From Lachnospiraceae bacterium (GTDB lineage: Bacteria > Bacillota > Clostridia > Lachnospirales > Lachnospiraceae): DNA of 64,000 bases. The stretch covers positions 1 to 64,000 of the forward strand of contig JAFUPV010000052.1 in the NCBI GenBank assembly GCA_017472605.1, given 5' to 3'. This document shows positions 43,960-57,081 of this stretch, in pieces. The position numbers and the translations under genes were made by a program. Within the stretch, counting starts at the first letter, position 1. Each line of letters begins with the position of its first letter. The notes under the pieces are model-generated. The model was not told where the DNA came from, made no database searches, and worked only from the letters and a program-made list of their open reading frames with translations.

Positions 43960-45306
43960 TTATTCAATACTGCTTTTCTGTGCCAGTGTGACATCGATGG
44001 AAAGCTCTTCAAACTGGTTTCCATTGATCCGCTGTACCGTCAGTGTTACCGTTTCCCCCGGCGCATAGTAGCTTAACGCGCTGCTTAATCCGGTATAGTC
44101 ACTGACTTTCTTTCCGTTTACCGCCGTGATGATATCGTACATCTGAAGCCCGCTTTCTGCAGCCGGACTTCCCTCCGTTACGGAAACGATCTGAGCGCCG
44201 GCCGGATAGCCGTACTGGCTGACTCTTGTCTCGCTGACATCCTCACCATAGATTCCAAGATAGCCTCTGTCCTCCGTTGCCAGCATATCTCTTGTTTCCT
44301 GAACTTTCAGACCTTCTACAATCTCGCTGACTGCGGTGATCGGGATTGCATAGCCGATGCCCTCTACACCAACATCTGAATATTTTGCGGAGTTGATACC
44401 GATCAGCTCACCGTTTCCATTGAACAGACCGCCGCCGCTGTTGCCCTGATTGATCGCTGCGTCTACCTGCATCAGTGTTCTTGTATATCCGTCCTCAATG
44501 GTTACTTCACGATCCAGCGCGCTGACATAGCCGACTGTTACAGACTGTCCAAGACCGAGGGCGTTACCGATGGCAATGGCACCCTGACCAACCTTTACCT
44601 CATCGGAATTTCCGATGGTTGCAATTCGGATCGCGTCTCTTGTGGTGTCCTCCAGTTCAGACAGCTGAACCGCGATGACAGCCAGGTCAGCTTCCTCGTC
44701 TGAACCCTTCAGCTTTGCCTCATAGTCCTTTCCGTCCGGCATCGTTACCGTCAGCTTCACAGAAGACGCGGTGTATTGATAAAAATAGCTGTTTCCGGAC
44801 GTGTCATAGGTTGAAACATGGTTGTTCGTCAAAATCAGCAGCTCCGTATCGTTCTGACCGATGATGACACCGGAACCATAGGCTTCTGTCTCCTCTACCG
44901 TAGTCTCACTCTGCGTTCTTCCTCCTCTGCCATTTCCATAGAAATAGGAGAACGGATCGGAGCTTCCTGTGGTAGTTGTCGTTACCTCAATGGTATTTGT
45001 GATGGAAACAACAGATGCCATGCAGGACTGTGCGATGTCGGATACATCCGGAAGACCGGTGATCTGCGTCACATCTGCAATGTCGTTTCCTGTCTCCGCA
45101 AAGGTTTCCGTCTCACCTGCCACAGCCGGTGCTGCACTGTAGAAGGAACCAACGGCAGCCCCTCCGATCACCGCACCGGAAAGAAGCAGTGCGCCTGCAG
45201 CAAGCAGTGCCGTTCCTTTTCTGTTCTTTCTATTCTTTCCGCCTTTTCCACGCTTTGTCTCATAAAAATCGTTTGATTCCAGTTCGTTGTGATTTCTTTC
45301 TGTCAT
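43960..45306 (-). CDS. htrA: HtrA/DegP-type membrane-anchored serine protease
   Basis: A 448-residue envelope protease: basic cytoplasmic tail (1-31), one membrane anchor (32-58), linker, trypsin-like domain with H163, D207 and S290 (G-N-S-G-G-G), then one PDZ domain (about 345-440). It degrades or refolds misfolded exported proteins outside the membrane. The ATG at 45306 has GGAGGG 7 nt upstream; the longer frame reaches into the operator region. A strong palindrome lies 46-65 bp upstream. Confidence 0.92.
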   Translation of the reverse strand: MTERNHNELESNDFYETKRGKGGKNRKNRKGTALLAAGALLLSGAVIGGAAVGSFYSAAPAVAGETETFAETGNDIADVTQITGLPDVSDIAQSCMASVVSITNTIEVTTTTTGSSDPFSYFYGNGRGGRTQSETTVEETEAYGSGVIIGQNDTELLILTNNHVSTYDTSGNSYFYQYTASSVKLTVTMPDGKDYEAKLKGSDEEADLAVIAVQLSELEDTTRDAIRIATIGNSDEVKVGQGAIAIGNALGLGQSVTVGYVSALDREVTIEDGYTRTLMQVDAAINQGNSGGGLFNGNGELIGINSAKYSDVGVEGIGYAIPITAVSEIVEGLKVQETRDMLATEDRGYLGIYGEDVSETRVSQYGYPAGAQIVSVTEGSPAAESGLQMYDIITAVNGKKVSDYTGLSSALSYYAPGETVTLTVQRINGNQFEELSIDVTLAQKSSIE

Positions 45307-45351
45307 GATTACACCCTCCTGTTGATATGATATCCACTGGTTGTGATTTTC

Positions 45352-45371
45352 AATATCACCACTGTGATATT
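45352..45371. promoter_or_regulatory. Perfect palindrome upstream of htrA
   Basis: AATATCAC-N4-GTGATATT, with a further GTGAT half-site 9 bp nearer the gene. It does not match CtsR or CIRCE sites, so an unidentified dimeric regulator is likely. Confidence 0.55.
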
Positions 45372-45488
45372 TTCCGGTAACTGTCATCTGCTGATCAATT
45401 ACTGTACCTGAAAAATACCATTGGTTTGTGAAGAATCGGTGTTTTAATTCGAAAGAAACCGTGAAAAGGAGGGGATGTCACAAAATCT

Positions 45489-45835: not shown

Positions 45836-46390
45836 TTAATACAGCAGCTTGCTCCCCTTCTCGCAAAGCTCATAAATTTCGTCATACTTCGCCTCAATCA
45901 GCGGCGTGATGCGCAGACGTTCCTTCTCCACCAGCTTTGCATAGAGAAACGGCGGAAACAGCCAGCCGAGAAAGGCAGGAATGGCAAGCAGGATGCATAA
46001 GCCGATATGAGGAGGCTGTGCAGTCACAGCAAAGACGGAGCCCGCCATAAATACCGTGCCGATCAGACCGACAATCAGCGCATACATGGTTGCCATAGAG
46101 TTTTTATTCCGCTCCAGCGTTTCAATTTCTTTCATGCATGCTTCAAAATTCCGCTGCAGTCTGGTCAGCTCCATTTTGTTGACAATCCTGCGGTCACGCT
46201 TCAGCCGGATATATACCTTTGGCACATGGGGTATCCCGGAGGTTTCCATTCCTCCCGGCATGTTTCCGTCCACCTCCCATCCAAAGCACTCATAGACATC
46301 CAGCATCATGGACGCATTGCTGTTGGACGCGATCACCTCTTTATATTCATAAGCCACAAAGTTTTTATGTGGTTTCTTATTCTCCTCCAT
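45836..46390 (-). CDS. Two-helix membrane protein at the end of a two-component operon
   Basis: A 184-residue protein of unknown family. A soluble N-terminal half, with a basic stretch R-L-K-R-D-R-R and a short coiled segment (75-100), is followed by two membrane helices (about 108-155) and a charged C-terminal helix. Its ATG lies inside the last codons of the sensor kinase gene (14-bp overlap) with GGAGG 9 nt upstream, so it is made with the kinase and may be an accessory or target of the system. Confidence 0.7.
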   Translation of the reverse strand: MEENKKPHKNFVAYEYKEVIASNSNASMMLDVYECFGWEVDGNMPGGMETSGIPHVPKVYIRLKRDRRIVNKMELTRLQRNFEACMKEIETLERNKNSMATMYALIVGLIGTVFMAGSVFAVTAQPPHIGLCILLAIPAFLGWLFPPFLYAKLVEKERLRITPLIEAKYDEIYELCEKGSKLLY

Positions 46391-47477
46391 TACCTGGTTC
46401 CTCCATTGTTTCATTTTGGACAGCCGGCAGAACCACTGTAAAGGTACTGCCAACGCCCTCCTCGCTGGTAACATGAATGTCACCATTCAGAAGCTCAAGG
46501 ACCCGCTTCACCAGTGCCAGACCAAGTCCGTTTCCTTCCTTTGCATGGGATGTATCCCCCTGATAAAACTTATCAAAAATGTGCCGAATGCTTTCTTTCT
46601 TCATCCCGCAGCCGGTATCTGCAACGAATATCTTCACATATCCGTCTTCCGAAATCTGCCGCACGGTAACGGTGCCTCCCGGTTCGGTAAATTTCAGAGC
46701 ATTGGACAGCAGATTGTTCCACACCAGCTCCAGCAGGGACTGATCCGCCAGTACCATTGCCTCGTCTTCCAGATCAATCTCCATCTCGATGCGGCGCGCT
46801 TCCCAGACCTCCTCGAAGGGAAGAATACAGTCACAAAGCTGTCTGCACACATCATAGACTTCCACTTCCGGTGTGATCCGCTGATTTTCCAGCCGGTTCA
46901 ACTTCAGAATGTTGCTGATCAGACTGGAGAGCCGGATCGACGCATCTTCCATGGCAGCCGCATATTCCATCCGCCGCTCCCTGGAAACCTCCTCCGCCTG
47001 CAGCATTTCCGCATAGTTCTTGATGATTGCAATCGGTGTTTTCATCTCGTGGGAAACATTGGAAACAAAATCGGTTTTCAGCGTTTCGATGCTGCCCAGT
47101 TCCTCCACCATTTTGTTGAAATCCAGAATCATGCGGTCCAGGTAATCCAGCTTATCCGCCGTGTGACAGGTCGGCATGTATACGGAAAAGTCACCGTTTG
47201 CTACTTTTTTTGTTGCCTCCGCCAGCTTATGCATCGGCTCGTCGTAGGAATCCCGGATCTGTTTTCTGGTAACAAACGTAATCACCGCAGCCACCAGTCC
47301 CCAGTATACCATAGGAACCACACACTGCACAACATCATTCAGCTGCAGCCGGTTCATCAGCACAATGATGCCGATGTGGACGCCTGACATCAGCGACAGG
47401 GTTATCCAGAAAATTGCAAACAGCGATGCGGGAAAGCGGCTCTGTTTAACCGGTTCCTGTTGTTTTCGTTCCTTCAC
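46377..47477 (-). CDS. Sensor histidine kinase, GTG start
   Basis: A 366-residue kinase. Two membrane helices (about 18-42 and 52-70) enclose almost no extracellular loop, so this is an intramembrane-sensing type. A HAMP domain follows, then the H-box with H143 in N-V-S-H-E-M-K-T-P, the N-box V-W-N-N-L-L-S-N-A, and the G boxes D-T-G-C-G-M and G-N-G-L-G-L-A-L. The start is a GTG that overlaps the TGA of the regulator gene (GTGA) after AAGGTGG. Small-loop kinases of this type often sense cell-wall antibiotics through partner transporters. Confidence 0.9.
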   Translation of the reverse strand: MKERKQQEPVKQSRFPASLFAIFWITLSLMSGVHIGIIVLMNRLQLNDVVQCVVPMVYWGLVAAVITFVTRKQIRDSYDEPMHKLAEATKKVANGDFSVYMPTCHTADKLDYLDRMILDFNKMVEELGSIETLKTDFVSNVSHEMKTPIAIIKNYAEMLQAEEVSRERRMEYAAAMEDASIRLSSLISNILKLNRLENQRITPEVEVYDVCRQLCDCILPFEEVWEARRIEMEIDLEDEAMVLADQSLLELVWNNLLSNALKFTEPGGTVTVRQISEDGYVKIFVADTGCGMKKESIRHIFDKFYQGDTSHAKEGNGLGLALVKRVLELLNGDIHVTSEEGVGSTFTVVLPAVQNETMEEPGNGGE

Positions 47478-48145
47478 TGCAGCACCACCTTATAGCCAAG
47501 TCCTCTTACCGTTACTATTTTGAATCCGTCGCAGGCGGACAGCTTATCTCTCAGCTTCGTCACATAGACATCCACAGCCCGCAGGCTGGTCTCACTGTCC
47601 ACGCCCCAGAATTCATCCATCAGCTGAGCCCTGGAAAAGGTCTTCTTCGGGTAGGACAGCAGCTTGTAGATGATGTTGAATTCTCTTGTCGTCAGACTGA
47701 TCTCCTCTCCGTCAACCTCCGCACTCATGCCATCCGCATCCAGAACCAGATTTCCAATGGTAATTTTCCGCTCCATTTCGATGTTTGCCCGGCGCAGAAG
47801 CGCTCTCACGCGAAGGAGCAGTTCATCCAGCTCAATGGGTTTTACCATGTAGTCATCAATTCCCAGCTGAAAGCCCTTCTGTTTGGCAGGCAGATCATCC
47901 CGGGCGGACATGAACAGGATCGGGATTGTTTTGTTCACCTGTCTCACGGTACGGGCAAATTCAAAGCCGTCGATCTCCGGCATCATGATATCGGAAATGA
48001 TCAGTTCATATAGATTGTTGTACATCTCATCATAGGCATCCCGCGCATTGAGACAGCCTTTTGTCATGAATCCGCAGTCACTTAAATAGGTGCAGACAAT
48101 CTGGTTCAGCTTTCCATCATCTTCTACTACTAATATGTGAATCAT
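47474..48145 (-). CDS. OmpR-family response regulator
   Basis: A 223-residue regulator: receiver domain (1-120) with phospho-acceptor Asp in I-S-D-I-M-M-P-E and Lys in M-V-K-P-I, and winged-helix DNA-binding domain (128-223) ending V-R-G-L-G-Y-K-V. It overlaps the preceding membrane-protein gene by 4 nt (ATGA) and the kinase by 4 nt. The 11-bp repeats in the promoter of its own operon and two others are the natural candidate binding sites. Confidence 0.92.
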   Translation of the reverse strand: MIHILVVEDDGKLNQIVCTYLSDCGFMTKGCLNARDAYDEMYNNLYELIISDIMMPEIDGFEFARTVRQVNKTIPILFMSARDDLPAKQKGFQLGIDDYMVKPIELDELLLRVRALLRRANIEMERKITIGNLVLDADGMSAEVDGEEISLTTREFNIIYKLLSYPKKTFSRAQLMDEFWGVDSETSLRAVDVYVTKLRDKLSACDGFKIVTVRGLGYKVVLQ

Positions 48146-49146
48146 GTTTTCCCTCCTGTTATGTTCGCTGCTGTCTGTTTTTCCAGATCTTCCTCTTTCC
48201 TCTCCCATGCGGCTTCTTCGCCGCCGGCCAGTCTCCTGCTCATCTTCCCGGCTGCCAGAATCCCCTGGATTCCCACAGCAAACACAATCAGGCAGACCAC
48301 TCCGCCAGTCATTCCGTTCATGACGCGGATCAGCATCTTCTGATCGCCGCCAAAGGAAGCAAACATGGCACTCTGCAGGGTAAGAATCGATACACACGCA
48401 TCGATATAACCGATTTTTCGTATGATGGTCAGAAGCGGCGAGTTCTGTTTTCTCACTCTCACCACGTTGATGGATGAATGGATGATCCGGTAAAAGGTAT
48501 AGGCGGCTGCCGCGTAGATGGTAAGACCCGGATAGTTCTTCCCGCCCTGAGACAGCACCAGCAGGACCACCATGCCTCCAAGAACTGCAGCCATCAGAAT
48601 GAACAGAATGCTGTTCTTTCGATAGATTATGATTTCCTTTTGTACCCGATCCCGGCTTCTGCTCATTCCTGTCAGCTGTCGTGCCTGCTGCACGGCTCCA
48701 AGACGCATGACACACAAAAGGATGTAATAGGCTGCCAGGCTTCCGAACCAGGCAGAATGGCTTACCAGTCCAACAACACCGTTGAATATCGCAAACACGA
48801 TGTTGCTCACCACACCGGGAACCGCAAATACGACGGTCCGCAGTCCATAGTCTGCCGCGACACGGCTGGTGTAGGGATTGGCGGCGATTCCTGTCCGGAT
48901 AACATCCTTAACGCCGTACCGGATGTCGAAGAACAGATACCAGCAGCCTGGAAAAAGAGTGGCTGCGGCACACACATAGATGGAAATCTGAAAGAACCGT
49001 TTTTCCGGTCCGTACGCGGCGCTGATCAGCGCAAGGGTCGCAAAAACAACCATTGCAATATAGAGAAGGATCCGCTGCCAGACACGAAGCTTCGGCATGG
49101 AGGGAAGCTTTTTCCTCTTCTTTCCTCCGCTTTCCTGCTTTTCCAT
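48142..49146 (-). CDS. Polytopic membrane protein heading the two-component operon
   Basis: A 334-residue protein with a basic N-terminus and about eight hydrophobic helices in four pairs; the C-terminus is charged and cytoplasmic. No family is recognised with confidence. It is the first gene of the operon with the regulator and kinase and overlaps the regulator start. It may act as a sensor partner for the small-loop kinase. GGAGG lies 6 nt before the ATG at 49146; the longer frame lies in the promoter. Confidence 0.75.
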   Translation of the reverse strand: MEKQESGGKKRKKLPSMPKLRVWQRILLYIAMVVFATLALISAAYGPEKRFFQISIYVCAAATLFPGCWYLFFDIRYGVKDVIRTGIAANPYTSRVAADYGLRTVVFAVPGVVSNIVFAIFNGVVGLVSHSAWFGSLAAYYILLCVMRLGAVQQARQLTGMSRSRDRVQKEIIIYRKNSILFILMAAVLGGMVVLLVLSQGGKNYPGLTIYAAAAYTFYRIIHSSINVVRVRKQNSPLLTIIRKIGYIDACVSILTLQSAMFASFGGDQKMLIRVMNGMTGGVVCLIVFAVGIQGILAAGKMSRRLAGGEEAAWERKEEDLEKQTAANITGGKT

Positions 49147-49204: not shown

Positions 49205-49254
49205 AGTATACCATGATTTTGTTTGCGTTTTGTTTTTAATTTGTGTCCATTCTG
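49205..49254 (-). promoter_or_regulatory. Phased-repeat promoter 1 (two-component operon)
   Basis: On the minus strand the -10 is TATACT (49210-49205). CAAAA-type cores lie 7, 18, 29 and 40 bp upstream: CAAAA, CAAAA, CAATT, CAGAA. There is no -35 consensus; the repeats cover its place. Same register as promoters 2 and 3. Confidence 0.7.
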
Positions 49255-49260
49255 TGAACA

Positions 49261-49350
49261 GACAAAACACGTCGTGCCGGCTTCTCCCGTCATCGCGGCA
49301 CTCGTCTGGTTTGCTCGCAGGCGTATCTCCTGACTTGCTGACGCGCATAT
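49261..49350. repeat. Second intergenic repeat family, copy
   Basis: About 90 bp alignable to 53874-53964, with the shared block ATCGCGGCACTCGTC and an end CTCCTGACTTGCTGACGCG. It lies upstream of phased-repeat promoter 1. Confidence 0.55.
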
Positions 49351-49352
49351 AG

Positions 49353-49398
49353 AAACAGGAAAAGCGGCAGACTCCTCCACCGCACCTTTTTCCTGTTA
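49353..49398 (-). terminator. Terminator of the small helical protein unit
   Basis: AACAGGAAAA with GCGG, loop, CCGC with TTTTCCTGTT; T-rich right arm on the minus strand, 32 bp after the 86-residue protein gene. Confidence 0.7.
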
Positions 49399-49429
49399 TC
49401 GTTCTGACTTTCTGTCTGTTCCAGAAGCT

Positions 49430-49690
49430 TTATTCCTCGTCCTTCTTCTCGCCGGAAAGACGCGCCTTTGCCTCCTCGACGGTCTCGCCTTCCTTTGCGA
49501 AAAACAGATCAACAAACTTGTCGCTTACTTTATTGAAGCCTTCCACTGCTCCCTCTTCCATCTTCTTGTAGCCGCCGACAACACCATCCTCGATTTTCTT
49601 ATAGCCGCCGACAACGCCGTCTTCGATTTTCTTGTATCCGCTCACTACCTTCTCCGCAATCTTCTCATTTACATCTGCAAACTTTGCCAT
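49430..49690 (-). CDS. Small amphipathic protein with three 11-residue repeats
   Basis: An 86-residue protein with three tandem copies of G-Y-K-K-I-E-D-G-V-V-G (residues 18-50), followed by a helix F-N-K-V-S-D-K-F-V-D-L-F-F and an acidic tail. The 11-residue period is that of apolipoprotein-like helices that lie on membranes. There is no signal peptide. The function is unknown. It is 83 bp downstream of the 83-residue gene and both appear to come from phased-repeat promoter 2. AAAGGAAG lies before the ATG. Confidence 0.75.
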   Translation of the reverse strand: MAKFADVNEKIAEKVVSGYKKIEDGVVGGYKKIEDGVVGGYKKMEEGAVEGFNKVSDKFVDLFFAKEGETVEEAKARLSGEKKDEE

Positions 49691-49773
49691 TTTTTTCTTC
49701 CTTTCCGCCTGAATCGGCTGCTCCTGACTGTAACTGTCTTCTTCCTTCCAACAACTCCCGCTCCTGCGCAGTC

Positions 49774-50025
49774 TTAATTCCTGCCCTGCGCCAGATCAAT
49801 GCGCTTCTGTGCTTCTGCTGCACGTTCCTGCGCTGCCGCAATCTGCTTGTCGCGCTCTTCCTGCATCAGTGCCTTGCGTGTTTCCGGCTTGCCCATTGCC
49901 TTTGCCTCTTCCCACTGCGCCTTCGATTCCGCCTTTGCTGCGGCGAAATTTGCTTTATCTACCTCGTGCTGCGCCTTTGCGCTTTCTTTCATATCGCTGA
50001 ATGCCTTCTTCAGAAAATTACTCAT
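49774..50025 (-). CDS. Small Ala/Lys/Glu-rich helical protein
   Basis: An 83-residue highly charged helix-forming protein: M-S-N-F-L-K-K-A-F amphipathic start, then Ala/Lys/Glu heptad-like sequence to residue 80. There is no Cys, membrane segment or signal peptide. The amphipathic N-terminus could touch the membrane. It is the first gene after phased-repeat promoter 2, with a short leader; the ribosome site (GGGGTAA) is weaker than elsewhere. No family recognised. Confidence 0.72.
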   Translation of the reverse strand: MSNFLKKAFSDMKESAKAQHEVDKANFAAAKAESKAQWEEAKAMGKPETRKALMQEERDKQIAAAQERAAEAQKRIDLAQGRN

Positions 50026-50098
50026 GTTTGCTTACCCCGTTTTTCTTTCTGTTCTGTATCTGCTTTGCGTCTTCCATTTCCACCGCAAGCATGACTGC

Positions 50099-50150
50099 AT
50101 TATATTCTGTTTTTATTTGAAATGTATTTCTGTTTTGTTTCTGTTCTGTT
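50099..50150 (-). promoter_or_regulatory. Phased-repeat promoter 2 (small helical proteins)
   Basis: On the minus strand the -10 is TATAAT (50104-50099). Cores 7, 18, 29 and 40 bp upstream read TAAAA, TACAT, CAAAA and CAGAA in 11-bp units (50107-50150). No -35 consensus. Confidence 0.7.
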
Positions 50151-50218
50151 AAACAAAAACATTTTTCCATACCGGGCCGATCTTTCTGCCACACACCGCT
50201 CCCTTACACGGCTCTCCC

Positions 50219-51046
50219 TTACACAACACTTGTCTTTTCCAGCACTCTTTTGCTGACAGCTCCAAGGCCGACTGCAAACAGCACACCGCCTGCAAGACAC
50301 AAAACGACATGGAACAGCGTGGAACCAAGCGGAGTAATCAGGGAGACCATCATGAAAAGCAGCATTCCCGCACCGAGAGAACCACAGAGTGCCAGCCACG
50401 CTTTCTGCTTTGCGCCCACACTGACAAGGACGAAAATCGAAACAAAGACAAGCATCAGAAAGACCTTGGCAATCATGCACATTACAATGTTCCCGGCATT
50501 CAGCGAACCAAGGGCAAAAGACAGACCGGAAATTGCGCCGCCAAGCATTGCACCGATCAGATAAACGATCAGCATCAGAGCTCCGCAGACAAAACCTGCA
50601 AGGGTTTTTGATACAACATAATCGCCTCTCCTGGCACGGATGGTAAAGAGGTTCTTTGCATATCCGCTTCGGAAATCCTCCGAGATAAACAGACAGATGA
50701 AAACGGCGGCAAGCAGGAACATCATGTTGATGTTGCACATGCTCATGACATCCATACCGCCCATTGCCGCACCGCCGTTTTCTGATCCGTCCGCAGGCAG
50801 CGTTCCGATGGACTGCCAGGCATTTTCCGGTCCTTCCAGAACAGTTTCCACTCCAGTCTGCGGATCAACAGAAACCGAACCATCCATCATGGTCATCATT
50901 ACAGTAATGAGGATCGGAATGACGAGCGCACAGGCAATCAGAATGTAGAAGAGCTTTGAGCGGAGCATTCGTCTGAAGTCAACCTTCAGCATGCTTGCCA
51001 ATCGTCTGCCAAAGCTGACATTTTCCAGTTTTACTGCGTTTCCCAT
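50219..51046 (-). CDS. ABC-2 type permease B
   Basis: A 275-residue permease with six helices and a 60-residue extracytoplasmic loop after helix 1. Its N-terminus (F-G-R-R-L-A-S-M-L-K-V-D-F-R-R) matches that of permease A, so the two are paralogues. It starts one base after the stop of ATPase B, the same spacing as in the A pair. Such ABC-2 exporters protect against lantibiotics or bacitracin-like peptides in relatives; the substrate here is unknown. Confidence 0.82.
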   Translation of the reverse strand: MGNAVKLENVSFGRRLASMLKVDFRRMLRSKLFYILIACALVIPILITVMMTMMDGSVSVDPQTGVETVLEGPENAWQSIGTLPADGSENGGAAMGGMDVMSMCNINMMFLLAAVFICLFISEDFRSGYAKNLFTIRARRGDYVVSKTLAGFVCGALMLIVYLIGAMLGGAISGLSFALGSLNAGNIVMCMIAKVFLMLVFVSIFVLVSVGAKQKAWLALCGSLGAGMLLFMMVSLITPLGSTLFHVVLCLAGGVLFAVGLGAVSKRVLEKTSVV

Positions 51047-51047
51047 C

Positions 51048-51947
51048 TTATTTCCCCTCCTTCATCAAGTCAATATAATATTCTTCCAGACCGATCTTGT
51101 CTGTTCTCATTTCTGTTACACAAATTCCGTTTTCATAGAGATATGTCACAATCTCTTCCGGAGTTGTCCGGTCATAAACACGAAGGAAGCCTGCTTCATC
51201 TTCTTCCACACGGGAATACCTGCAGCCAAGCAGCATCTTACTTTTGTTCATCTCACCGGTCCGCAGCGCAACATAGGTACGGCAGCCGGCATCCAGCTCG
51301 TCTGCTGTCATTTCCCGGATCATTTTTCCGTGGCGTATGATTCCGTAATGCGTGGCAACCTTCTGAAGCTCTCCCAGCAAGTGGGAAGACACGATTACAC
51401 TGCGTGTTCCGTCTTTTACGACATCAGTCAGCACTTCCCGCATGATTCTCATGCCATCGGCATCCAGACCATTCAGCGGTTCATCCAGAACAAGCAGAAG
51501 AGGATCTCCCAGCAGTGCCATGGCAATGCCGACCCGCTGCTTCATGCCAAGGGAACAGTTCTTATATTTGTTTCCTGCGGCGCCTTCCATCCGAACCAGC
51601 TTCAGAACCTTCACAACCTCTTTCTCCGCGTCCGGGATGCTCAGATTTCCTGCCTGAAGCATCATGTTATCCCAGACGGAAAGACCGGGAAAGCAGCCCG
51701 GCGCTTCAATCAGCACGCCAATTCTTGCTCTTACCGCTCCATCGGTATAGTCTTTCCCGTACAGTTTGATGGAACCGCCGCTTACAGGAATCAGCCCGCA
51801 GATCATTTTTTCCGTGGTGGATTTGCCGGAACCGTTTTCACCGATAAAGCCATAGACAGCGCCCATGGGAACGGTCATGTTCAGACCGCAGACCGCCTGT
51901 TTCGCCCCGAAGTTTTTCGAAAGATTTTTTATTTCAACTGCATTCAT
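51048..51947 (-). CDS. ABC transporter ATPase B (BcrA-like)
   Basis: A 299-residue ATPase: Walker A G-E-N-G-S-G-K-S-T, signature L-G-M-K-Q-R in place of L-S-G-G-Q, Walker B L-L-V-L-D-E-P, and a 75-residue C-terminal domain typical of BcrA-like exporters. It is a close paralogue of ATPase A and nearly the same length. The ATG at 51947 has AAGGAGG 8 nt upstream; the longer frame lies in permease A. Confidence 0.9.
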   Translation of the reverse strand: MNAVEIKNLSKNFGAKQAVCGLNMTVPMGAVYGFIGENGSGKSTTEKMICGLIPVSGGSIKLYGKDYTDGAVRARIGVLIEAPGCFPGLSVWDNMMLQAGNLSIPDAEKEVVKVLKLVRMEGAAGNKYKNCSLGMKQRVGIAMALLGDPLLLVLDEPLNGLDADGMRIMREVLTDVVKDGTRSVIVSSHLLGELQKVATHYGIIRHGKMIREMTADELDAGCRTYVALRTGEMNKSKMLLGCRYSRVEEDEAGFLRVYDRTTPEEIVTYLYENGICVTEMRTDKIGLEEYYIDLMKEGK

Positions 51948-51963
51948 CTGCCTCGCCTCCTTC

Positions 51964-52806
51964 TTAATAGACATCGCTCTTTGAGAGAATCCGTGTGCCA
52001 AGCACATTGTAAATAACTGCCCATGCCGCAGACACCGCAGCACAGATGAGCAGTGTCGGAATCCCGCTTACCAGGCAGGCATTGACAGATGAACCATAGA
52101 GGAAAAGGTTCAAAAAGGAGGTGGGAAGCGACAGATTTTCAACAATGGCAGCAATCCCAATGATCAGGATACCGGTACCAAAGAAGAAACTGGACGCAAT
52201 GGAAACACCGAAATATTTTCTGAAAATGATGTTGAGGAAGGTGTAAAGGCTTGCCCAGCCGAAGCTCATGATCATTTTGCCAAGAATGGCAAGAATCAGC
52301 GATCCCACATTTACTTCCAGCGAATAACCTGCCAGCACGCCCCCAATGGTGCCGCCGATGAGGTAGGTAATGCACATGCAGACCATGGCAAAGGCGCAGA
52401 CAATGCTCTTGGACATCATGTAGTCCTGCTTCTTCGCATGGGTCGTAAAGAGCTGTTTTACATAGCCGCTCTTATAGTCGTGGCCGATGAAAATGGATAC
52501 CATGATTCCGCCGAAGATGAATACCATGTTCATGTTGGCATAATCGGCAATGCTGTTTACAACATAGAGCGGTTCTGACGCCGCAATGATTTGCCACACG
52601 TTGGAATACAGCGGTTCCATTTTGTTGCCGTTGGCATCCGGCATCGTTGTCATGGCCGACACCATGGCCGGGATAATGGCAGCAATAACAAGGAAAATGT
52701 AAAACATCGGCGTATGGAACAGCCGGTAAAAGTCCACACCAAGCATCCCCTTCAGCCGCTTTGAAAAGCTGGGCGATTCAAATTTCAGTTCCCGTTTTGT
52801 TTCCAT
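51964..52806 (-). CDS. ABC-2 type permease A
   Basis: A 280-residue permease with six helices and an extracytoplasmic loop after helix 1, paralogous to permease B (F-S-K-R-L-K-G-M-L-G-V-D-F-Y-R). It begins one base after the stop of ATPase A. The order ATPase-permease-ATPase-permease indicates tandem duplication of a two-gene cassette, now diverged. Confidence 0.82.
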   Translation of the reverse strand: METKRELKFESPSFSKRLKGMLGVDFYRLFHTPMFYIFLVIAAIIPAMVSAMTTMPDANGNKMEPLYSNVWQIIAASEPLYVVNSIADYANMNMVFIFGGIMVSIFIGHDYKSGYVKQLFTTHAKKQDYMMSKSIVCAFAMVCMCITYLIGGTIGGVLAGYSLEVNVGSLILAILGKMIMSFGWASLYTFLNIIFRKYFGVSIASSFFFGTGILIIGIAAIVENLSLPTSFLNLFLYGSSVNACLVSGIPTLLICAAVSAAWAVIYNVLGTRILSKSDVY

Positions 52807-52807
52807 G

Positions 52808-53710
52808 TTACTTTCCCTCCTTCTGCGACATCAGTTCAATGTAATATTCTTCCAGACCAATCTTATTCTTTTTGATTTCGCTGATCACATGGCCGTTTTT
52901 CATCAGATAATCCACAATGGCAGCCGGATCATCTGCATCATATACACGGATCGATCCGTCTTCTTCCCGGACATCCGCAAATTTTTTTTGCAGCAGCGCT
53001 TTGGCTTTCTGCATCTCTCCTGTTTTCAGCGAAATAAACATCTGCGCTCTGCTGTCCATTTCCTTCGCGGAAATTTCCATGATCATTCTTCCCTGACGGA
53101 TGATGCCATAGTGAGTTGCGATCTTTTCCAGCTCACCCAGGATGTGGGAGGAAATCAGAACGGTGCAGCCGTATGTCTGAGTAATGTCCACAAGAATTTC
53201 TCTCATAATCCGCATACCGTCTGTGTCAAGACCATTGATTGGCTCGTCCAGAATGAGGAGCGCCGGATCACCAAGCAGCGCCATGGCGATTCCAATTCTC
53301 TGTTTCATACCGAGCGAGCAGTTTTTAAATTTGAGATTCGCGGAATCTTCCATTCGAACGATTTCCAGCACACGTCTGATTTCTTCCTCCCCGTTTTCAA
53401 GTCCCAGGTTAATTGCCTGCATCATTAAATTCTGATACACGCTGGAACCCGGAAAACATCCGGGATCCTCAATCAGCGCACCGACTCTGACTCTGACGCC
53501 GGGATCGGTGTAATCTTTGCCGAAGAGCGTTATCGTTCCTCCATCCGGAACCAGATGTCCGCAGATCAGTTTTTCCGTGGTCGATTTTCCACTGCCGTTT
53601 TCGCCGATAAATCCATAGATTGCTCCCACTGGAACGGTCATGTTCAGATGATCGACCGCATACATGCCGCGAAAGCTTTTGGATAAATTTCTGATTTCAA
53701 TCGCATTCAT
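52808..53710 (-). CDS. ABC transporter ATPase A (BcrA-like)
   Basis: A 300-residue ATPase with Walker A G-E-N-G-S-G-K-S-T, signature L-G-M-K-Q-R, Walker B L-I-L-D-E-P and the C-terminal extension of BcrA-type proteins. First gene of the duplicated exporter operon, read from phased-repeat promoter 3. The shared Gln/Lys-containing signature supports common origin with ATPase B. Confidence 0.9.
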   Translation of the reverse strand: MNAIEIRNLSKSFRGMYAVDHLNMTVPVGAIYGFIGENGSGKSTTEKLICGHLVPDGGTITLFGKDYTDPGVRVRVGALIEDPGCFPGSSVYQNLMMQAINLGLENGEEEIRRVLEIVRMEDSANLKFKNCSLGMKQRIGIAMALLGDPALLILDEPINGLDTDGMRIMREILVDITQTYGCTVLISSHILGELEKIATHYGIIRQGRMIMEISAKEMDSRAQMFISLKTGEMQKAKALLQKKFADVREEDGSIRVYDADDPAAIVDYLMKNGHVISEIKKNKIGLEEYYIELMSQKEGK

Positions 53711-53764
53711 TCGTTCTTCCTCTCCTTCTGTGATACCTAGTGCCTGCGCCAGGCAGTTTTTTTT

Positions 53765-53815
53765 ATCATACGCGTCATGTGTTTGGGTTTTATTTGCCTT
53801 TTGTTTCTGTTTTGT
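53765..53815 (-). promoter_or_regulatory. Phased-repeat promoter 3 (duplicated ABC exporters)
   Basis: On the minus strand the -10 is TATGAT (53770-53765). Cores 7, 18, 29 and 40 bp upstream read CACAT, TAAAA, CAAAA and CAAAA; 53783-53815 is three clear 11-bp units. No -35 consensus. The rest of the gene-free stretch 53711-54059 holds two repeat elements and a terminator. Confidence 0.7.
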
Positions 53816-55468: not shown

Positions 55469-56962
55469 TCACGCAATATGCTCCTTCACCACCGCACTGC
55501 ATATTTTCAGATTCTGGTACCGGTGCTCGATGCGCTGGTCCGGGTAGTGCCGGTCAAAATAACGCCAGAAATGGTTCTGCACTGCCGTTCCCCGGTTCCG
55601 GTCTGTGTAGCGTTTTAACGCCAGCGCGGAAACAAACCCGTCCAGAAGAAGGAAGACGAACATCACCATGCAAAGCGGTTTTCCGATAGACGATGGAATC
55701 CGCTCAATCTGCGTGCTTCCTTCCTCCTTCACAGTCTGCTGCAGATGCTGGATTCGCTCTATCTGTGCGCTTCCTTCCTCTTTTACAGCCTGCTGCAGAC
55801 GCTGAATCCATTCCATCTGCGCCTCTTTCGTTTCTTTCACTGTCTGCCGGATCTGCCCGCTTCTTACTGCGCCTTCCTCAATGACTGCCAGACGAACCTC
55901 CGATGCCAAAATCCGAACCAGACGAACCAGCGCATGGAAAACCAGTTTCCGGTCTTCTGAACTCAGTTCCGACATGCCGCTGATCAGACCTTTTGTCCGC
56001 TGCAGCCACTGTTCCTTCAGTTCCAGAAATTCCTGAATGCCGATACGCTCAATTACATGGAACACGGTATTGACAATCGTCTCCCGTTTTTCCACAGCCA
56101 GCTCGTCCAGCCAGCTGTCCAGCGCCTGTTTTGTATGTCTGGAAAAAGCATCCACCCGGTCTGCCAAAACAAACGTCCCGTCACTTACCTCCCAGGTATA
56201 GGGATCGTGCTGAAAAAAGACATCCGCGCTGTTTGAAACGACCTGATACTGGTCATCATCCTGCCAGATCATTCCAATCACCGAAGACTGAGGAACGGTT
56301 TTCCTTATCAGCGGCTGGATTCTTTCATAGGCATCCCGATCCATGAAGTCTCTGCACAGAGACGGACCATCGTGACTGAACACGCCGGCAATCCGTTCCT
56401 GCAGTTCTTTTGGAAGTCCTGCCGCCGCATAGACAGCCAGATTGCCGCCTTTGGAATGTCCGCCCAGATAAAACTGCCCGGGAAACTGTTCCATGACTGC
56501 TTTCGCATACAAAAGAGCAGAACGCTGGGCTGGAATCTGCGGGCAGAAGCTGAGGCAGAAATCCTCCTTCCAGCCGACAACACTGTTGTCTGTGCCCCGA
56601 AACGCTATGTAGTATCGGTTCGCTTCCAGCTCAAAGGTAACTGCAGAAAACTGTTCGCCCTCTTCCCGATCGGTCACTTCCACATACCGACAGGCACGCA
56701 GACGACCGAATCGTGTTCCCTCTCCCATGTGCATCACCAGCTGACAGTCGTTTTTCTGCGTCACCAGTCCGGTTGTCATCTGCTGCGCATGTCTGGTCAG
56801 AAATCCGCCGATGGAACCGGTGAACGTCTCCTGTTCAAAATCGCTGCCGGTAAAATCGTAATATGAAATCTGACTCAGGATCAGACTGTCTACCGCTCCG
56901 AATGGCTTTTCCTCAAATCCGGTCTGACGATACGTTTCCGCATATGAAATCATTGTTCCCAT
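55469..56962 (-). CDS. DUF2974-type alpha/beta-hydrolase (lipase-like) with repeat stalk
   Basis: A 497-residue protein. Residues 1-290 form a Mbeg1-like/DUF2974 hydrolase with the nucleophile elbow G-G-H-S-K-G-G and later D-G-P-S. A helical region follows. About residues 385-435 hold 18-residue repeats (I-E-R-I-Q-H-L-Q-Q-T-V-K-E-E-G). A single hydrophobic helix (about 438-462) is near the C-terminus. There is no signal peptide. It may be a membrane-tethered esterase facing the cytoplasm; substrate unknown. The ATG at 56962 follows AAGGCGG. Confidence 0.78.
   Translation of the reverse strand: MGTMISYAETYRQTGFEEKPFGAVDSLILSQISYYDFTGSDFEQETFTGSIGGFLTRHAQQMTTGLVTQKNDCQLVMHMGEGTRFGRLRACRYVEVTDREEGEQFSAVTFELEANRYYIAFRGTDNSVVGWKEDFCLSFCPQIPAQRSALLYAKAVMEQFPGQFYLGGHSKGGNLAVYAAAGLPKELQERIAGVFSHDGPSLCRDFMDRDAYERIQPLIRKTVPQSSVIGMIWQDDDQYQVVSNSADVFFQHDPYTWEVSDGTFVLADRVDAFSRHTKQALDSWLDELAVEKRETIVNTVFHVIERIGIQEFLELKEQWLQRTKGLISGMSELSSEDRKLVFHALVRLVRILASEVRLAVIEEGAVRSGQIRQTVKETKEAQMEWIQRLQQAVKEEGSAQIERIQHLQQTVKEEGSTQIERIPSSIGKPLCMVMFVFLLLDGFVSALALKRYTDRNRGTAVQNHFWRYFDRHYPDQRIEHRYQNLKICSAVVKEHIA
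55699..55851. repeat. 54-bp coding repeat in the lipase-like gene
   Basis: Two nearly identical 54-bp units (55699-55752, 55753-55806) and a diverged third. They share CTTCCTTCCTC and CTGCTGCAGA and encode 18-residue coiled-coil-like units. Confidence 0.85.
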
Positions 56963-57081
56963 GGAATCACCGCCTTTTCCCAACAGGGAGAAACACGCTG
57001 CAGGAATCTCTTCCACTCCTCTTGTGCTCTCCCAACGAATACGCAGGCGCCCACCGGCCTGCTTTACCAAACCTGTGGCCG

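Follow-up and report, generated by a model that had tools for sequence, protein, structure and literature searches.

Do three neighbouring promoters that carry the same evenly spaced repeats answer to one regulator? The question is raised by positions 49,205 to 53,815 of the window, by which we mean the whole 64,000-nucleotide stretch of Lachnospiraceae bacterium DNA analysed here (GenBank assembly GCA_017472605.1, contig JAFUPV010000052.1, positions 1 to 64,000). On its minus strand three gene groups follow one another in the order of transcription, namely two exporters (53710-50219), the small proteins smA and smB (50025-49430), and an operon for the membrane protein MemX, a response regulator, a histidine kinase and a second membrane protein, Mem184 (49146-45836). 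Each group is preceded by a TATNNT box and four 11-bp units. These promoters, referred to as P3, P2 and P1, respectively, are most probably activator-dependent sites of one OmpR/PhoB-type response regulator, that encoded at 47474-48145, which would drive a membrane-stress regulon.

Phased arrays in the window and in related loci

The units read CAGAATGGACA CAAATTAAAAA CAAAACGCAAA CAAAATCATGG then TATACT in P1, CAGAACAGAAA CAAAACAGAAA TACATTTCAAA TAAAAACAGAA then TATAAT in P2, and CAAAACAGAAA CAAAAGGCAAA TAAAACCCAAA CACATGACGCG then TATGAT in P3. Direct reading bore out the initial annotation, which had proposed four 11-bp units per promoter in identical register to the -10 box. Its label of CAAAA-like pentamers describes them loosely, with the exact CAAAA present in 5/12 and YANAW fitting 12/12. 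The promoters also lack a -35 consensus, as had been claimed, because the best TTGACA matches at a spacer of 16-18 reach only 2/6, 3/6 and 3/6 in P1, P2 and P3. A weight matrix made from P1-P3 (the window matrix) scored the three sites at 46.8-49.2, and the next three of its top six hits (27.8-32.2) were register-shifted overlaps of the same sites; 20 Markov samples of 64 kb reached 14.4 at most. This chance test is circular, the matrix being derived from the three sites that it scores, and the matrix was therefore applied mainly to other genomes.

Searching both strands of 77 non-redundant related loci with the window matrix (threshold 18), we found period 11 combined with offset 0 to the -10 box in 33 of them, as opposed to at most 7 loci for any other offset (-5 to +5) or period (9-13) and at most 5 for the unit read backwards. 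In an unseeded test on 75 upstream regions of relatives, 4-mer identity was in excess at lag 11 (z 7.8); the next-highest lags were 18 (z 3.0) and 22 (z 2.7), and stretches downstream of the regulator gave z 1.1 at lag 11. Starting from 46 seeds matched by the window matrix, we collected 171 sites in 84/96 loci (72/77 named, 12/19 unnamed). Most of these relatives belong to the Lachnospiraceae or to other Clostridia; Enterococcus larvae and Paenibacillus macerans contribute one locus each.

With positions numbered from the first base of the -10 box, the refined motif consists of TTAA at -48 to -45, then YAWTTCNGAAA, CAAAACTCAAA, CAATNCNNAAA, CAANNNNNNGN and TATNNT. It can be read as the half-sites TTAACA at -48 and NAAACA at -37, -26 and -15, in 11-bp steps, and a C is conserved at -33 (89%), -22 (75%) and -11 (67%). 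The strongly conserved TTAA, which the initial annotation had missed, is held by P2 and P3 and is TTCA in P1. This P1-type variant, TTCACA...GACACA, is common to several sites that precede MemX in relatives (e.g., L113:3316, L116:739, L085:5788, L111:5985, L112:5974 and L097:3161). One locus (L061, genome G106) carries three array-like sites at 297-bp steps on its minus strand (15943, 16240 and 16537), as if a promoter segment had been tandemly duplicated.

Occurrence of the sites across genomes and the genes behind them

How frequent the pattern is among random promoters of this genome, a check already put forward in the initial annotation, was assessed with a profile (R1) trained on 80 sites, all of them from genomes other than this one; 150 of 1411 candidates in the 3.68-Mb genome were scored. 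P3 ranked first (E 6.6e-7), P1 second (8.8e-6) and P2 fourth (1.5e-3). Five matches cover at least 52/56 positions, in the order P3, P1, C11:30143, P2 and C19:5499, and the remaining matches (7/12 at E <= 10) are partial. As a profile of foreign sites returns P1-P3 among five near-full matches, the pattern is not a feature of random promoters here. The site at C11:30143 precedes a 521-aa cardiolipin-synthase-like protein with PLD domains, and that at C19:5499 a small membrane protein whose family recurs behind sites in relatives. A strict 22-bp pattern was also tried on this genome and gave four matches, two of them in P3; the other two, at the start of an RNase Y-like gene and upstream of an acyl carrier protein-like gene (both named by eye), are unphased to a -10 box and were dismissed as chance.

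We extended the R1 scan to 195 genomes, own included, taking as an orthologue any regulator match at E <= 1e-70 among up to 15 candidates scored per genome. By this definition 28 genomes have an orthologue (59-100% identity). Full-length matches (model start <=4, end >=53, E <= 0.01) occur in 20/28 genomes with an orthologue versus 0/167 without (Fisher 3e-21), and in 15/23 versus 0/167 after the five training-row genomes are dropped. At E <= 1e-4 and any length, the counts are 19/28 versus 1/167, the single genome being G069 with a partial match of 26.5 bits. This co-occurrence, together with the 26 sites before the regulator gene and the 26 before MemX, supports the proposal of the initial annotation that the promoters share one regulator, most simply that of the window, and we infer that it binds the arrays.

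The genes that follow the 171 sites outline a recurrent set. The first gene is most often of the smB family (34), followed by the regulator, MemX and the small membrane protein family (24); rarer are an NAD-dependent epimerase (8), a Mem184-like protein (7), a radical-SAM protein (3), a no-Pfam family (3) and others with 1-2 sites each, and 13/171 sites have no recognised gene behind them. Single linkage places 31 of these first genes in the cluster of the small membrane protein family, 7 of them matching Mem184. In site-bearing loci, MemX mostly lies just upstream of the regulator. Across 80 named loci, the kinase was found in 78, Mem184 in 77, MemX in 44, smB in 36, smA in 1 and permease 1 in 1, all counts being lower bounds as some loci are on short contigs. 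The fixed five-part module suggested by the initial annotation is not borne out by these numbers: the conserved core is the regulator, the kinase and Mem184, the regulon extends beyond the window, and the exporters look like a local addition.

The exporter ATPase was found in none of the other genomes of the 195 at E <= 1e-110, and among the named loci one, L124 from a Tyzzerella metagenome-assembled genome, has it; we therefore set the exporters aside as a conserved part, none appearing beyond L124 at the thresholds used. In L124, one site heads the row smB, cardiolipin-synthase-like gene, ATPase 1 (84% identity), permease 1 (73%) and ATPase 2 (77% over 82 residues, the gene being cut by the locus end). 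The homologues of this row sit behind three separate arrays in our genome, one of them on another contig, and the single-site row therefore links both the exporters and the synthase with a common control. In G050, too, a site precedes a homologue of the same cardiolipin-synthase-like gene.

Further target genes were seen in individual genomes. In G028 (loci L202, L073 on G028:C16 and L210 on G028:C86), the profile matched nine times at E <= 0.01, with eight of the matches sharing a contig. The genes behind them include CmpB-like, epimerase, radical-SAM and small membrane protein genes, as in an expanded version of the regulon. In two Lachnospiraceae loci (L088 4023 and L095 3957), an array-like site lies before a protein resembling, by eye, a small alarmone (ppGpp) synthetase.

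Parts of the locus

The features of the window are collected in the table. The regulator comprises a receiver and a winged-helix Trans_reg_C domain (84 and 73.8 bits, above cut-offs). OmpR/PhoB-type regulators bind half-sites arranged as direct repeats, about 11 bp apart and near the -35; repeats of this spacing are present at P1-P3, where binding by this regulator is our proposal. Neither the regulator nor the kinase passed a cut-off among the best 25 of 93 and the best 25 of 90 NCBIfam models, respectively.

Table. Features of the three promoters and their gene groups, in window coordinates
Feature	Position	Strand	Description
P1	49205..49257	-	half-sites TTCACA, GACACA, AAAACA, CAAACA in 11-bp steps; -10 TATACT at 49210-49205; heads MemX-regulator-kinase-Mem184 operon
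P2	50099..50152	-	four half-sites, first TTAACA; -10 TATAAT at 50104-50099; heads smA-smB
P3	53765..53820	-	four half-sites, first TTAACA; -10 TATGAT at 53770-53765; heads both exporters
MemX	48142..49146	-	334-aa membrane protein
Response regulator, OmpR/PhoB type	47474..48145	-	Response_reg and Trans_reg_C; proposed regulator of P1-P3
Histidine kinase	46377..47477	-	two membrane helices (about 22-40 and 52-70, hydropathy), loop of ~11 residues
Mem184	45836..46390	-	184-aa membrane protein
smA	49774..50025	-	83 aa; amphipathic N-terminus; no Pfam match
smB	49430..49690	-	86 aa; 11-residue repeats, 11/3 amphipathic helix; no Pfam match
Exporter ATPase 1	52808..53710	-	
Exporter permease 1	51964..52806	-	ABC2_membrane_4
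Exporter ATPase 2	51048..51947	-	61% identity to ATPase 1
Exporter permease 2	50219..51046	-	ABC2_membrane_2 and 4; 29% identity to permease 1 over 207 positions

Two earlier suggestions about the proteins gain support from their sequences. The proposed small-loop kinase has two predicted membrane helices, and no sensor domain was found in it; it fits the intramembrane-sensing histidine kinases, in which two membrane helices flank a very short loop on the outside and a sensor domain is missing. For the small proteins thought to lie on the membrane, the support concerns smB, whose residues 6-64 have a helical moment of 0.443 at 98.2 degrees versus 0.117 +/- 0.059 in shuffles (maximum 0.365, n=2000). 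A sequence search of the PDB with smB returned only a chance match (E 0.8).

Foldseek gave no fold match for MemX at E <= 0.001, and none was obtained for Mem184 at the same threshold. The predicted fold of MemX residues 96-314 resembles a ZnT/YiiP-type membrane domain, with a consistent VIA-align match. Cation diffusion facilitators carry conserved H/D metal ligands in their membrane helices; the predicted fold of MemX resembles theirs but lacks this ligand pattern, as no H or D occupies an invariant or nearly invariant column among 32 sequences, where N115 and E171 are nearly invariant.

Two neighbouring genes, both on the minus strand, have no site of this kind. An HtrA-like protease (Trypsin_2 and PDZ; window 43960-45387) lies downstream of the signalling operon and has no array of its own, and no profile match precedes the gene of an Mbeg1-like protein (window 55469-57070). 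A Pfam homologue of the latter in G028 (L210) stands behind a strong array site.

Proposed mechanism, alternatives and related systems

In the mechanism that we propose, the short-loop kinase, assisted in the membrane by MemX and/or Mem184, would report a disturbance of the membrane or cell envelope and phosphorylate the regulator. Two tandem dimers would then bind head-to-tail on TTAACA-N5-NAAACA-N5-NAAACA-N5-NAAACA, the last half-site of which ends nine bases before the -10 box, and the dimers may replace the -35 element and recruit RNA polymerase. The output would be a membrane-protection set. Besides the operon that encodes the signalling proteins (autoregulation), it would comprise the amphipathic protein of 11-residue repeats, which is expected on the membrane, as well as a small membrane protein, an enzyme resembling cardiolipin synthase and, here, also the two exporters.

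Several observations weigh against this proposal. Sites are missing from 5/77 named loci; L084, L096 and L134 are short or cut near the regulator, L090 and L143 are not. Seeding of the matrix drew on the window's own units, P2 is the weakest of the three promoters (20.6 bits), and the link to the exporters depends on P3, L124 and one distant ATPase behind a site (L073). In the comparison of genomes, the full-length cut was chosen after the list was seen, the scan used strict filters with 29 candidates scored per genome, and absence of an orthologue means none at E <= 1e-70 among the candidates scored. Any match at E <= 0.01 occurs in 23/28 genomes with an orthologue versus 29/167 without, and two of the orthologue-free genomes come close to full length (G113, positions 9-55; G181, positions 6-53). 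Conversely, 8/28 orthologue genomes have no full-length match, including the same-genus G002 (orthologue 68% identical), which is also without MemX and smB. These eight genomes may form a diverged subgroup or may have lost weaker sites to the filters, both being possible.

The same eight genomes, and the 29 with a weaker match, would also be compatible with binding of the arrays by some other response regulator, or by a transcription factor, that the same genome encodes, and OmpR-type regulators are plentiful (at least 26 first-look candidates in many genomes). We consider this unlikely, as 52/171 sites precede the regulator gene or MemX, mostly in the same operon, and full-length sites track this orthologue across the 195 genomes. 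A different possibility is that the window's regulator does bind but mainly represses, or merely sets a basal level: the array covers the -35 position, and an overlap with the polymerase site is compatible with repression as well. However, only 20/171 sites have at least 3/6 matches to TTGACA at 16-18 bp versus ~45% of background positions, a shortage that follows from the motif itself, and polymerase would therefore have no -35 without an activator. The fixed register to the -10 box, as in CiaR-activated promoters (PMC3091779), likewise speaks for activation, which leaves repression quite improbable.

Since the units are A-rich and their spacing is near the helical repeat, phased A-tracts could also be considered, i.e., intrinsically curved, UP-element-like DNA that boosts a promoter without any specific regulator. 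Yet the repeats keep to a period of 11, no more than 2 loci being found at a period of 9, 10, 12 or 13 (threshold 18), and curvature needs neither the conserved C at -33, -22 and -11 nor the TTAA at -48 to -45. With full-length matches confined to genomes that have the orthologue (0/167 without), this explanation is very unlikely.

Activation of all three promoters by the response regulator of the window thus remains our preferred reading. A broader picture, which we offer tentatively, is that of an unnamed membrane-stress system that would be widespread among gut Clostridia and extend to Paenibacillus and Enterococcus. Its sensor might be formed by the short-loop kinase and MemX, a transporter fold that would have lost its metal ligands, and its main effector might be smB, as a synuclein-like protein of 11-residue repeats that coats damaged membrane while a cardiolipin synthase alters the lipids beneath. 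For a two-component system found repeatedly among gut Clostridia, the analysis thus supplies a predicted binding site, a proposed regulator and a set of targets, all ready to test. Families without a described function (Mem184, MemX, smA, smB and the small membrane protein) are linked to a single switch that would also govern cardiolipin synthesis and export. Their putative role in protecting the membrane can thereby be tested directly, and it may account for the survival of these bacteria in the presence of membrane-active agents.

Parts of the system resemble known ones. LiaFSR/LiaIH and Psp combine a short-loop kinase and an induced membrane-lying helical protein with membrane protection, features also suggested here. 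In contrast to LiaFSR, with its NarL-type regulator and HisKA_3 kinase, our locus has a HisKA kinase and an OmpR-type regulator (Trans_reg_C), and smB is an 86-aa 11-residue-repeat protein. The exporters are like the LanFEG/BcrAB lantibiotic/bacitracin exporters in pairing a small ATPase with an ABC2-type permease, and TIGR03740 is the best NCBIfam model of both ATPases; however, their scores (192.3 and 198.5 bits) lie below its cut-off of 309.75 for lantibiotic protection exporters. BceRS-BceAB differs as well, since the BceAB permease has about ten helices and a large extracellular loop, whereas the permeases here are of ABC2_membrane families with 275 and 280 aa.

The pho boxes of Bacillus subtilis are TTAACA repeats, to which the TTAACA half-site here is close, and they replace the -35 element. 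Our arrays share with PhoB/PhoP pho boxes the tandem head-to-tail 11-base repeats and, by our proposal, an OmpR/PhoB-type regulator (PMC4415409). Unlike in Pho, the target genes seen include no phosphate genes, and the scores of the regulator and the kinase fall far short of the cut-offs for PhoB, PhoR and PnpS (regulator 158.7 bits vs 296.2 for TIGR02154 and 171.1 vs 270 for NF053854).

HexRK-HexSDF of Clostridioides difficile is likewise a clostridial two-component system with a small regulon of membrane-lipid genes and a bacitracin and daptomycin phenotype, but its main target is a glycolipid operon (PMC10128005); it was set aside as a named equivalent by this main target alone, not by the HexR sequence. 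For the Blautia obeum regulators of nisin O, the portion of text covered mentions neither 'direct repeat' nor 'binding'. A close parallel in site architecture, as distinct from regulator sequence, is CiaRH of streptococci, which affects lysis and beta-lactam resistance. Its OmpR-type regulator activates promoters whose direct repeats, spaced by 11 bp (NTTAAG-N5-TTTAAG), keep a constant distance of ten bases to a TATAAT -10 box (PMC3091779). Our promoters differ in having four half-sites instead of two and other letters, and many CiaR sites drive small RNAs.

The promoter architecture and the regulator class are therefore of already known kinds (PhoB, CiaR). The system as a whole seems undescribed, as searches of 5.39 million open papers, a set with most subscription journals outside it, returned none that describes it in its title or abstract start. 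With this result and no cut-off passed among the 25 best NCBIfam models for either protein, we judge it to be a putative envelope two-component system that is set apart by accessory proteins of its own and by promoters with four half-sites.

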